A stretch of DNA of 29,088 bases. Origin: a virus. Location of the stretch: positions 1 through 29,088 of the IMG/VR virus record IMGVR_UViG_3300017752_000101; one strand, 5' to 3'. Below are positions 1 to 26,155 of the stretch, one piece after another. The notes beneath the pieces were generated by a model. It was not told the origin of the DNA, ran no database searches, and saw nothing but the letters and a program-made list of their open reading frames with translations. Within the stretch, counting starts at the first letter, position 1; each line of letters opens with the position of its first letter. Made by a program: the position numbers and the translations under genes.

Positions 1-87
1 AGTGAGTTCAGCTTGATTTACAGTCTTTTCCATTTCATCAAAAGCTTTTGACCAAGACCAGTTTGAAGGATTATTTGAATTATACAT
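1..87 (-). CDS. Partial leftward gene, 5' end only, unknown function
   Basis: The first 29 codons of a leftward gene lie here, and the gene runs off the left edge of the window. The start ATG is at 87..85 and the peptide begins MYNSNNPSNWSWSKAFDEME. No family is recognised. The start is supported by a 42-bp module at 102-143 that also precedes the next two leftward genes. The composition (polar, Trp and Asn rich) gives no functional clue. The position next to a divergent control region suggests an early or regulatory transcript, which is inference. Confidence 0.6.
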   Translation of the reverse strand, partial: MYNSNNPSNWSWSKAFDEMEKTVNQAELT

Positions 88-101
88 AGTTATTTATTTT
101 A

Positions 102-143
102 TTAGTTTATTATATTATCGACACTTTGTCGTAATTAGTTTGT
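102..143 (-). promoter_or_regulatory. Copy 1 of the 42-bp leftward promoter/leader module
   Basis: Read on the minus strand this is ACAAACTAATTACGA, then nine bases, then GATAATATAATAAACTAA, ending 14 bases before the ATG of the leftmost gene. The same arrangement with the same nine-base gap is found at 580-621 and 819-860, each time upstream of a leftward ORF. Inside the gap of this copy lies a short inverted repeat (CGACA CTT TGTCG on the plus strand, 119-131). A promoter plus translation leader is the simplest reading. Its polymerase or sigma specificity is unknown. Confidence 0.6.
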
Positions 144-306
144 AACTGAGTGAGAAATCGAATCTCACTTCCAACCATTTCAGTTATGTGTTGAGTAATA
201 TGTTCGTGTTATTTATAGTCGTTAAAGTATTACTATCAACTTCGACTTTGACTCGTTCATTTTTGATTTACCAGTAAACGAGTAGAACTAACTGGACTTT
301 TAGTTT

Positions 307-543
307 TTAAGACTGAGTACTTAATTCTCTGCAGAATTTAGGAACAGTATTACTATTTGTATAAGATTTATACTTTTGAAAACAATTCATCTCGTCAAAT
401 TTATTTTGAAACTCATTATAAATTTCATCATGATTATAAGTGAATGTAATGTCTTTTTTGTTAGTGAAAGTGACTACTGTATTAGTACCTATTAGTGACT
501 TTCTGATTACAAATCTTTTTGTTGTTAAGTTATTAGTTTTCAT
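307..543 (-). CDS. Small leftward protein of unknown function (78 aa)
   Basis: A 78-residue protein starting MKTNNLTTKRFVIRKSLIG. The N-terminal third alternates hydrophobic and basic residues, suggesting a small beta-rich domain, and the C-terminal half is polar with two cysteines. No TM segment, signal peptide or family is recognised. The ATG at 543 follows the 42-bp leftward module (580-621) and an A/T-rich leader, which makes expression credible. The about 160 bases between its stop and the module of the next leftward gene hold no convincing gene. Confidence 0.6.
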   Translation of the reverse strand: MKTNNLTTKRFVIRKSLIGTNTVVTFTNKKDITFTYNHDEIYNEFQNKFDEMNCFQKYKSYTNSNTVPKFCRELSTQS

Positions 544-579
544 ATTATTTATTTTTTATTTAGTTATTATTAATTTAGT

Positions 580-621
580 TTAGTTATATATATTATCTGT
601 TTGTTGTCGTATTTAGTTTGT
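580..621 (-). promoter_or_regulatory. Copy 2 of the 42-bp leftward promoter/leader module
   Basis: On the minus strand: ACAAACTAAATACGA, nine bases, then GATAATATATATAACTAA. The last 18 bases are identical to copy 3 and the first 15 differ from copy 1 at one position. It sits 36 bases upstream of the 78-residue gene's ATG. Conservation of spacing in three copies argues for a functional promoter/leader rather than chance AT-richness. Confidence 0.65.
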
Positions 622-698
622 GTTGTGTAAGTGTAGTTTTGTTTAGTTATTAATTTTAGTTTAGAAGTGTATCGCGTAAACTCTCTGTAATTTACATT

Positions 699-800
699 TT
701 AAATTCCATTAAATGAAATATAGTTTATAATTCCGTGAGTGATTATGTTATAAGCTATCAATGTTATTAGTGATGTTAAAGATATTAGTAATAGTTTCAT
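699..800 (-). CDS. Small membrane peptide (33 aa)
   Basis: A short ORF from ATG at 800..798 to TAA at 701..699, with sequence beginning MKLLLISLTSLITLIAYNII. Residues 2 to about 22 form one hydrophobic, probably membrane-spanning helix, followed by a short polar and aromatic tail. Length alone would not support it. The 42-bp leftward module at 819-860 sits 18 bases upstream of the ATG, exactly as for the other two leftward genes. Small inner-membrane peptides are common among phage early genes (for example in superinfection exclusion or host takeover), but no specific role can be assigned. Confidence 0.5.
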   Translation of the reverse strand: MKLLLISLTSLITLIAYNIITHGIINYISFNGI

Positions 801-818
801 ATTGTTTTTATTTATTTG

Positions 819-860
819 TTAGTTATATATATTATCTAACGAAGCTCGTAAATAGATTGT
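819..860 (-). promoter_or_regulatory. Copy 3 of the 42-bp leftward promoter/leader module
   Basis: On the minus strand: ACAATCTATTTACGA, nine bases, then GATAATATATATAACTAA, followed by an A-rich leader to the ATG of the 33-residue membrane peptide. Its 18-base downstream half is identical to copy 2. Confidence 0.6.
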
Positions 861-921
861 GTACTTATTAGTATGTCAAAATGTTAGACGCTAAAAGGTT
901 ACACAATTATGCATCGAAATA

Positions 922-1000: not shown

Positions 1001-1047
1001 TATATTGTGGGGTGCAGTACTCTACTCCTATATTTCTAGTATATTTT

Positions 1048-11893: not shown

Positions 11894-12256
11894 ATGGCAT
11901 TTAAATTAAAATCTCCTTATGAGAAACAAACAACGCCAATATATATGGTAGATGACGAGAACGATGTTTTAGGTAGAGCTAACAATAATGGCACTATAAC
12001 TATTAATAATAGAATAGATGATCCTAAGCAACTTGAGGAAGTTATAGATCATGAAGAAGTTCATGTTAATCAATTTAAAAGATTTGAAAAATCAAATGGT
12101 AAAAAAGGTTTAAACTATTCTGATACATCTATAGAGTGGGAAGGAAAATCTTATCCACGTAAAAACGGTAAAATAAAATACAAAGGCAAATGGATCATGG
12201 AAGGTAGTAAGTCGTTTCCGTGGGAACAAGAAGCATACAAAAAAGAGAAAAAATGA
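11894..12256 (+). CDS. Minimal HExxH metallopeptidase-like protein (120 aa)
   Basis: The N-terminus MAFKLKSPYEKQTTPIYMVD carries the KSP motif. The core has a short beta hairpin (GTITINNRI), then VIDHEEVHVNQ, giving the zinc motif H53-E54-x-x-H57. After the EWEGKSYPRK stretch there is PWEQEAY, whose Glu (E111 or E113) is placed like the third zinc ligand of gluzincins. Small DUF4157-like peptidases have this HExxH plus E-x-x-A-Y layout. No transmembrane or export signal. Its neighbours carry KSP motifs, so it may process virion proteins, but that is inference. The 3' end overlaps the next gene by ATGA. Confidence 0.65.
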   Translation: MAFKLKSPYEKQTTPIYMVDDENDVLGRANNNGTITINNRIDDPKQLEEVIDHEEVHVNQFKRFEKSNGKKGLNYSDTSIEWEGKSYPRKNGKIKYKGKWIMEGSKSFPWEQEAYKKEKK

Positions 12257-14007
12257 GTTTTGAAAGTTTAGTAAAAAAATTAATGAAAGAAGGCAAAAGC
12301 AAAACAGCAGCTACTAAAATTGCTGGATCTGTAGCTAATGCTAAAATGAAAGGTGCTGGCTCAGGGCCAACTGCAAAGCAAAAAGCTAGAGCAAAGTCAC
12401 CAGCTACTAAAAAACGTAAGCCAACAGCTGTTATAAGAGACAAAAATAGAGTAGCTGATAAAAGTAGATCTTACACTGATAAAAAAGGTAAAAAAGTAGA
12501 AATAAAAACTTTCAAGCACGAAAAAGCTTATGACAGTGGTGTTAAAGATGATCCTAACAAGCCTTACCAGAAAAGAAAGTCTTCAAGATTATCAAACACT
12601 GTTGAACTACACAAAACAAAAACAAAAAAAGACGGAACTACTAAAACTAAAGTTAAAAGAGCTGCAGGTGGTACTAAAAAATCACAAAGACTGCATACTA
12701 AATTTGCTAAAGGAAAAAACAAAGAAGGCTCTTCTGATGTAATTGTCGAAAATAGAAAATCACCAACAACAATGAAAAAACAAGGATATAATGCACGTTT
12801 AGATGACTCTTTAGGAGCTAAAAACGGTAAGAAAAAACAATCAATGAAATCTCGTAGAGATGAATCTGAAGGTATGGAAAAGAAAATGAAAAATAAGAAG
12901 TTTTCTGGAAACAAGTCTAGTGCTCAAGGTAAAGCACCGGCTAAAATGAAGTCACCTGCTAAAAAACCTTTGGTTGGCGGACAAAAGAAATTACCAAAAG
13001 AACTACAAGAAGCAATATTAAAAGCTCCTGCTAAAATGTTATCTAAGTCAGGAATTAAAATGATGGATAAATCACCTGCTAAAATGAAAGCGCCAATGAA
13101 AAAACAAAAATCAAAAAGCACTGATGCGCATGGTAATGTTACTAAGACGACTGTAAAAGGTAACAAGAAAAAAGAAGTTACAAGAGTAAAAAGAGAATAT
13201 GCTTCTAATGCTAAGCCTTTAGCTGAAAATCCAACAGTTAAAAGAAAAGGTAAAAAAAGATATGTAAAGAAAACTACATATGCTTCTAATGCTCAACCCT
13301 TAGCAGAGAATCCATCTAAAGTAAAAACAAAAGGAACTGCACCAATTAAAAAATCAAAGCAAAAAGTAGAGCAAGACTACGCTAGAAATGCTATTGCTGA
13401 TTATAAGTCTGGAAAGAAAAAAGAAGCTAAGTACGAAAAGAAAAAAGCTTTAGAAATGGCAGCTGGTGAATCTCCTGCTAAAATGAAAAATCCTTCTAAG
13501 AAAAGAGCTAAATTGATGGATAAGGTAGAAAAGTTTGATAACTTATCTAACTTTAGAGGTAGACCTGGAAATTTAAAACCTAGAAAAAAAGACGTCTCAG
13601 CAAAAAGGTACGATAAAAGAATTGATAAAGGTTTTAAAAAAGCTGATAAAAAAATGTCTAAAGTTATGGCTATTGATTCTGCTGCTAAAATGAAAAAGTC
13701 TCCAAGTATGATGAAAGGTGGCGAAAAACGTAAAGTTAAAAAAATGGCAGTTAAACTAGGTTCTAGCGCTAGACCAGGTAAACGTACAGGTAACACTGAG
13801 TTTAAGCCAATGAAAATGGTACCGTATGAAAAGAAACATGAGATGGCGACCTTTAAAAGAATGAAGCCAATGAAAGAAGCTTCACCTACTAAAATGAAAA
13901 GTAATCAAGATGGTGGTGGATATGCAGCTAAGAATATGGCAGCTCCAGCTAGACAACTTAAAAAGTTAGGAAGTGTATTATCTAAGCATTTCAAAAGCAA
14001 TAGATAA
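12253..14007 (+). CDS. Large lysine-rich KSP-repeat protein, histone-like (584 aa)
   Basis: I chose ATG 12253, which overlaps the preceding stop as ATGA. An in-frame ATG at 12220 would create a longer overlap. The N-terminus MSFESLVKKLMKEGKSKTAA leads to KMKGAGSGPTAKQKARAKSP, a conserved opening in phage proteins of this kind. There are 24 lysines in roughly the first 100 residues, and the rest is similar. About ten [K/M]-[S/A/N]-P-x-[K/M] motifs are scattered along it (e.g. KSPATKK, MKSPAKKP, DKSPAKMKAPMKK, GESPAKMKNP). A 27-residue tandem repeat with YASNA(K/Q)PLAENP starts at residues 316 and 343, with a degenerate third copy at 376. It is probably disordered and DNA-binding or packaged with DNA. 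Confidence 0.7.
   Translation: MSFESLVKKLMKEGKSKTAATKIAGSVANAKMKGAGSGPTAKQKARAKSPATKKRKPTAVIRDKNRVADKSRSYTDKKGKKVEIKTFKHEKAYDSGVKDDPNKPYQKRKSSRLSNTVELHKTKTKKDGTTKTKVKRAAGGTKKSQRLHTKFAKGKNKEGSSDVIVENRKSPTTMKKQGYNARLDDSLGAKNGKKKQSMKSRRDESEGMEKKMKNKKFSGNKSSAQGKAPAKMKSPAKKPLVGGQKKLPKELQEAILKAPAKMLSKSGIKMMDKSPAKMKAPMKKQKSKSTDAHGNVTKTTVKGNKKKEVTRVKREYASNAKPLAENPTVKRKGKKRYVKKTTYASNAQPLAENPSKVKTKGTAPIKKSKQKVEQDYARNAIADYKSGKKKEAKYEKKKALEMAAGESPAKMKNPSKKRAKLMDKVEKFDNLSNFRGRPGNLKPRKKDVSAKRYDKRIDKGFKKADKKMSKVMAIDSAAKMKKSPSMMKGGEKRKVKKMAVKLGSSARPGKRTGNTEFKPMKMVPYEKKHEMATFKRMKPMKEASPTKMKSNQDGGGYAAKNMAAPARQLKKLGSVLSKHFKSNR
13198..13314 (+). repeat. 81-bp tandem coding repeat in the lysine-rich gene
   Basis: The codons for YASNAKPLAENP (13198-13233) recur as YASNAQPLAENP (13279-13314), exactly 81 bases later. 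This implies duplication of a 27-codon unit. A weaker third start (YARNA) occurs at 13378. DNA identity is higher within the 12-codon core than between cores. Confidence 0.7.
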
Positions 14008-25247: not shown

Positions 25248-25253
25248 AAAAAT

Positions 25254-25281
25254 AAAGATCCCGTTTCGGCGGGGTCTTTTT
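25254..25281 (+). terminator. Intrinsic terminator
   Basis: AAAGATCCCG (25254-25263), loop TTTCGG, CGGGGTCTTT (25270-25279) make a ten-base stem with one T-G wobble, extending into TTTTT. It lies seven bases after the preceding stop. Confidence 0.9.
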
Positions 25282-25303
25282 ATTTATTATATTATATTAT
25301 ATT

Positions 25304-26101: not shown

Positions 26102-26115
26102 CAAGTGATTATAAT

Positions 26116-26143
26116 AAAGGTGGTTTAATCGCCACCTTTTTTT
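26116..26143 (+). terminator. Intrinsic terminator
   Basis: AAAGGTGG (26116-26123), an eight-base loop, CCACCTTT (26132-26139) and T continuing to 26143 (seven T in a row). A perfect eight-base stem, extendable by a T-G pair. It lies 14 bases after the preceding stop and 12 before the next start, so the downstream gene needs read-through or a promoter in or after this site. Confidence 0.9.
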
Positions 26144-26155
26144 AAAAATATTAAT

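Follow-up and report, generated by a model that had tools for sequence, protein, structure and literature searches.

What is the 42-bp module that stands before each of three leftward small genes at one end of a viral DNA fragment, and which protein would read it? The window, by which we mean the whole stretch analyzed (record G000, 29,088 bases, 33% G+C), is a tailed-phage fragment with terminase, portal, capsid, and GroEL/GroES genes. Its big genes all run rightward and the leftward small genes are confined to the left 0.86 kb; from this gene content, we infer that the leftward strand is the 'early' one. The original prediction had placed three minus-strand copies of the module at 102-143, 580-621, and 819-860. 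These copies are exact in their core: TACGA-N9-GATAATATA occurs with zero mismatches at 111-133, 589-611, and 828-850, all on the minus strand, and a repeat search groups the three modules as one family, copies 2 and 3 being 76% and 69% identical to the first. The distances it gave from module edge to ATG (14, 36, and 18 bases) were also correct. The exact core was found three times in the window and never in 300 dinucleotide-Markov shuffled copies of it. With three mismatches allowed, matches are hardly enriched (12 versus 7 expected in the window). Thus, only close matches count, and the weak ones scattered over the rest of the window are noise. The features discussed below are listed here; the three promoter rows are based on the exact core match together with the geometry of 401-403 sites in relatives.

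107..144, minus strand: putative promoter copy 1; upstream block (-37 to -22) at 144-129, TACGA at 133-129, GATAATA at 119-113, predicted +1 at 107
585..622, minus strand: putative promoter copy 2; upstream block at 622-607, TACGA at 611-607, GATAATA at 597-591, predicted +1 at 585
824..861, minus strand: putative promoter copy 3; upstream block at 861-846, TACGA at 850-846, GATAATA at 836-830, predicted +1 at 824
1..87, minus strand: 5' portion of a small gene truncated at the window end, behind promoter 1 with a leader of 20 nt
307..543, minus strand: 78-aa gene behind promoter 2, leader of ~41 nt; family widespread in related records
699..800, minus strand: 33-aa membrane-peptide gene behind promoter 3, leader of ~24 nt

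Two related records preserve this arrangement. G051, which is 99.9% identical to the window over 17.6 kb, contains the same three module copies and extends the truncated gene at 1..87 to 66 aa. In G047 (61.9 kb; 78.5% identity to 73% of the window), the module precedes the same three genes (33, 78, and 66 aa), although the 78-aa frame is disrupted in that assembly. The 33-residue peptide gene, which the module had exposed in the original reading, looks real, since the peptide is conserved at 54-85% identity in relatives and its gene is preceded by the motif in G047.

The rest of the window has several other sequence features. A terminator-like hairpin (1007-1028, plus strand) lies in the intergenic stretch from which the leftward small genes and the rightward module diverge. 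G+C-rich inverted repeats with a T run (25248-25303 and 26102-26155, plus strand) lie ahead of rightward late genes; TATTATATTATATT is also found ahead of 25304 (plus strand), and the same layout precedes similar genes in G047, G028, G036, and G032. The gene at 12220-14007 (plus strand) encodes a repetitive, very lysine-rich protein of 595 aa with SPAKMK-like repeats and is flanked by genes for other lysine-rich proteins.

The module recurs throughout a group of related viruses. A scan of IMG/VR relatives, which had been proposed as a check, found many copies clustered in one part of each genome and nearly all in the orientation of the small leftward genes, while reversed-pattern control scans of these records gave near zero matches. 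With a weight matrix built from 87 exact-core sites, we detected 7 to 14 sites per near-complete genome, with a single off-strand match across all these genomes and one match in all simulated sequences of the same dinucleotide content. De novo expectation-maximization on 186 early-strand upstream regions recovered TTACAAactaAATACGA-N9-GATAATAT (log likelihood 920 versus 757 reversed) and found no motif in 131 late-strand regions (236 versus 227 reversed). Unbiased gapped-word counting in upstream regions likewise gave this motif for the early strand and no motif for the late one; a late promoter motif was dropped as a candidate, with nothing above the reversed control. Among 401 sites taken from independently fetched loci, 360 lie within 60 nt of the ATG of an open reading frame (ORF) of at least 30 codons, and only 14 of 421 fall wholly within a same-strand ORF. 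Both promoter function and phage specificity, as first proposed, are strongly supported by sequence, and the module appears to be a real promoter class that this phage group uses many times.

The geometry of these sites resembles that of a sigma-dependent promoter. Of 401 sites, 400 have a purine 26 nt downstream from the T of TACGA, even though this position was not scored. Taking this purine as +1 places GATAAT at -12 to -7, CARACT at -35 to -30 (a spacer of 17 bp), and TACGA at -26 to -22. All of the hallmarks, namely, -35 and -10 elements, 16-18 bp spacing, and a purine at the predicted start, are present over the 401 sites. It had been argued that the gap of nine bases excludes a -35/-10 pair. 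This argument fails, because the nine-base gap lies between the -10 element and TACGA, which is an additional inner element, and a -35-like block lies further upstream at the normal spacing of 17 bp. The 42-bp repeat is then probably the promoter plus the first transcribed bases, with AACTAA as +1 to +6, and the window RNAs are predicted to begin with AACUAA at 107, 585, and 824. In 58 sites, the ATG falls exactly at the predicted +1, so that ~14% of the promoters would be leaderless by these predicted starts; in Flavobacterium psychrophilum, 5.5% of mapped mRNAs are leaderless (PMC9723704). GATAATA is unchanged in all 403 sites, whereas the upstream block has one version per genome (TACGRAGCAAACACGT in L246, AAAAGGTTGACACGA in L251, ATATARGTTTGACACGA in L294, and TTCGAAnnnTAATACGA in L285). 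An upstream block that drifts as a unit beside a fixed GATAATA is the pattern expected of separate readers, or of separate domains of one reader.

Other kinds of element were considered and set aside. The motif has TACGA-N9-G(+1) in common with the T7 promoter, in register, but TATA at -4 to -1 and the contacts at -9 to -5 are not conserved; furthermore, a T7-type polymerase (PF00940) was found in 0 of 12 genomes, while the T7 positive control was detected at 1e-109. In the window, copies 1 and 3 are able to fold small hairpins of the N4 kind, but base pairing does not clearly covary across 131 sites (in the N9 gap, the best of 14 axes gave 10 stems versus 5.5 expected, sd 2.2). An RNA element was rejected for want of an Rfam match, and a sigma-70 consensus scan gave matches no more numerous than in shuffles.

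Comparison of gene content points to a candidate reader. Two adjacent regulatory genes, encoding a sigma-70 family protein of ~250 aa and a helix-turn-helix (HTH) protein of ~206 aa, are present in 12 of 12 near-complete motif-bearing genomes, the sigma gene being disrupted by frameshifts in one assembly, versus 0 of 5 motif-free relatives. The ~250-aa protein matches PHROG 351 in all 12 genomes (down to 8e-25), Pfam Sigma70 region 2 in 10, and region 4 in 9, and its PDB profile matches include SigA (6e-11) and, over the full length, FliA (1e-9). A fold search with its structural model, which is of moderate confidence (pLDDT 75), gave sigma-A chains as matches (E 5e-7) with low overall TM-scores of ~0.3, as expected if the domains are flexibly placed. 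All four comparisons (PHROG, Pfam, PDB profile, and fold) identify this protein as a sigma-70-family member, for which core binding and initiation are predicted. No PHROG 351 sigma was found in the five motif-free relatives or in phi14:2, apart from one spurious match of 53 positions. The invariant G106 and R109 of the family align to E. coli Q437 and T440, residues that contact promoter position -12. By structural analogy, G106 and R109 would fit the T-to-G change at -12.

The window fragment of 29 kb does not itself include the sigma gene. Its nearest intact sigma/HTH pair is in G005, whose terminase is 85% identical, and judging from such relatives, the window's own phage presumably carries the gene. 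The G047 sigma gene (L183:8094-8855) is split by several frameshifts; together with the shifted 78-aa gene, this suggests assembly errors in that record. Cultured relatives, namely, Elemovirus, Cellulophaga phages phi38:1 and phi13:2, and Tenacibaculum phage Gundel_1, as well as the uncultured complete genome MW202828, have terminase, portal, and several structural proteins in common with the window's group but, unlike it, lack both the sigma gene and the motif. The hosts of cultured relatives are Flavobacterium, Cellulophaga, Tenacibaculum, and Maribacter. The phages of the group are a large set of uncultured marine viruses of Flavobacteria-like bacteria.

Scanning viral contigs with the sigma protein alone yielded 80 loci. 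Of their motif copies, 422 share the strand of sigma and 1 is on the opposite strand; the reversed control gave 0. At least one copy is present in 72 of the 80 loci. Of the eight motif-free loci, most offer only a short sequence upstream of sigma; the sites of L306 are variant and weaker, and L248, in which the HTH frame is truncated and 10 kb upstream of sigma are free of the motif, may be misassembled. At the level of sequence, it can be taken as established that a promoter class exists, that it shares its strand with the small leftward genes, and that it co-occurs with a sigma gene.

We consider the best explanation, with a probability of about 0.65, to be a promoter class read by host core RNA polymerase with a phage-encoded sigma-70-family factor. 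The phage sigma would redirect the host core enzyme to the module promoters, possibly helped by its HTH partner. Region 2 of sigma would read GATAATA at -12 to -6, and the block from -37 to -22 (TACARACTAAATACGA) would be read by sigma region 4 and/or the adjoining 206-aa HTH protein. Transcription would begin at the conserved purine, sometimes right at the start codon, and the promoters would drive the small genes that precede and surround the sigma operon. A point against this explanation is that most of the promoters are found upstream of the sigma gene, with one directly before it (within 120 bp) in only 1 of 80 loci. The first expression of sigma must therefore need another promoter or carry-in, neither of which was found in these sequences, and the module promoters would amplify a programme begun by some other promoter. 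We advance more tentatively, at somewhat less than even odds, a two-protein system in which sigma reads the invariant GATAATA and the adjoining HTH reads a -37 to -22 block that is reset per lineage, giving private promoter sets.

The main rival, which we regard as unlikely, is that host RNA polymerase with a host sigma is activated by the 206-aa HTH protein at -37 to -22 in the manner of T4 MotA, with the phage sigma serving another gene class. In 75 of 80 loci, the HTH gene is the immediate neighbor of sigma; in about half of them, the two frames overlap or almost touch, often with overlapping stop and start codons. It is thus almost as frequent as sigma, and co-occurrence does not single out sigma as the reader. 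The HTH model is confident, with the helix-turn-helix at the C terminus, and the upstream block occupies the place where an activator replaces the -35 element; the spacing of the MotA box, 12±1 bp from the -10 (PMC2988021), can be cited in the same sense. The sequence of the -10 element speaks against this rival. The primary promoter of Bacteroidota is TTTG/TAnnTTTG (PMC6847099, PMC9723704), and GATAATATA is unlike the flavobacterial -7 element TAnnTTTG at -12 to -5, in whose place it sits, and unlike every one of the six sigma motifs reported in F. psychrophilum (PMC9723704). The original prediction had already recognized that the module does not match the Bacteroidota promoter, and TAnnTTTG is not enriched upstream of early genes. 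Nor did we find a late-strand motif for the phage sigma to serve instead. Against an HTH activator, sigma is encoded in the record of L285 (G359, 68.9 kb), where a variant promoter contains GATAATATA, yet no homologue of HTH was found there; this single case, in a possibly incomplete record, suggests that HTH is dispensable. Beyond its C-terminal helix-turn-helix, the 206-aa protein has no recognizable relative of solved structure: a fold search gave no PDB match below E 0.5 and one viral match (A0A516MIB4, E 2e-10). A covariation analysis of sigma or HTH residues against promoter positions was set aside because it was dominated by relatedness. We advance more tentatively, at somewhat less than even odds, a two-protein system in which sigma reads the invariant GATAATA and the adjoining HTH reads a -37 to -22 block that is reset per lineage, giving private promoter sets.

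A polymerase carried in the virion, as in crAss-like phi14:2 and Thermus phage P23-45, could also transcribe the early genes, with the motif as its promoter. The small leftward genes resemble first-expressed genes, the genomes encode a giant protein of ~2,000-3,700 aa, and the P23-45 virion polymerase has a conserved AT-rich motif as promoter (PMC10770324). Yet BLASTP, phmmer, and profile comparison found no homologue of phi14:2 gp66, although very diverged polymerases could escape such searches, DxDxD is not conserved in the giant proteins, and no PDB match was obtained. Moreover, the motif tracks sigma, and relatives with the giant protein but no sigma are motif-free. We judge this account improbable. 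The phage polymerase of the original prediction is not supported in either a T7-type or a phi14:2-type form; since the genomes carry sigma-70-family and HTH proteins and no phage polymerase was found in them, a change in the specificity of the host enzyme is likelier.

The phages might instead have copied a pre-existing host promoter for an alternative sigma. In a few Flavobacteriaceae chromosomes, exact copies do stand before host genes, some with conserved leaders. But a match within two mismatches occurs in only 7 of 299 host-family genomes, with one or two copies each and several near chance level, and the phages have a sigma of their own, which makes this origin very improbable. The Flavobacteriales MAG contigs L315, L316, L317, and L313, as well as L328, have exact or one-mismatch phage-promoter copies before host genes. 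The L315 copy precedes a presumably TerB-like gene near parA/parB; those in L316, L317, and L328 precede a small secreted-protein gene with a conserved leader, and a similar leader is found in L332. These host-chromosome copies could mark infection-induced genes or be relics. A phage early gene (L314, Prochlorococcus SAG contig) and a sigma/HTH pair (L311, Ilumatobacteraceae MAG contig), found in assemblies of unrelated bacteria, are probably contamination or co-sorted phage.

A promoter class with a candidate sigma and a candidate co-factor is thus defined for abundant, uncultured marine phages of Bacteroidota, hosts whose unusual promoter is ill-suited to standard tools. It helps to find many small genes, the 33-residue peptide included, and to date their expression, and phage gene timing becomes testable in an abundant group that is experimentally untouched. 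Because natural promoters number in the hundreds and matched sigma/HTH pairs in the dozens, the drift of specificity with coherence within each genome is directly testable.

Among open-access papers, we found no description of the motif or of a sigma factor in this phage group. Phage sigma factors are already known, and it is this promoter architecture and pairing that appear undescribed. Conserved motifs ahead of early genes in P23-45 are likewise promoters, there of the phage polymerase (PMC10770324), and phi14:2 also has a marine flavobacterium as host; unlike both, the present group has a sigma gene and no detected homologous polymerase. T4 middle promoters, which depend on sigma appropriation by MotA/AsiA, similarly have a phage element in the -35 place beside a -10 at -12 to -7 (PMC2988021), but T4 borrows host sigma-70, whereas here the sigma is phage-encoded and the -10 is unlike that of the host. 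Also similar are phiEco32 gp36 and phage 7-11 gp47, phage sigma-family proteins that redirect host core RNA polymerase to conserved phage promoters; in those phages, as predicted here, the start lies 6-9 bp from the element, and phiEco32 also has a co-factor, gp79 (PMC8948821). Their promoters (tAATGTAtA or GTAAtg-16-aCTA) serve middle and late genes (PMC8948821), whereas the present class combines GATAATA with a 16-bp upstream block, stands before small early-strand genes, and is accompanied by an adjacent HTH gene.
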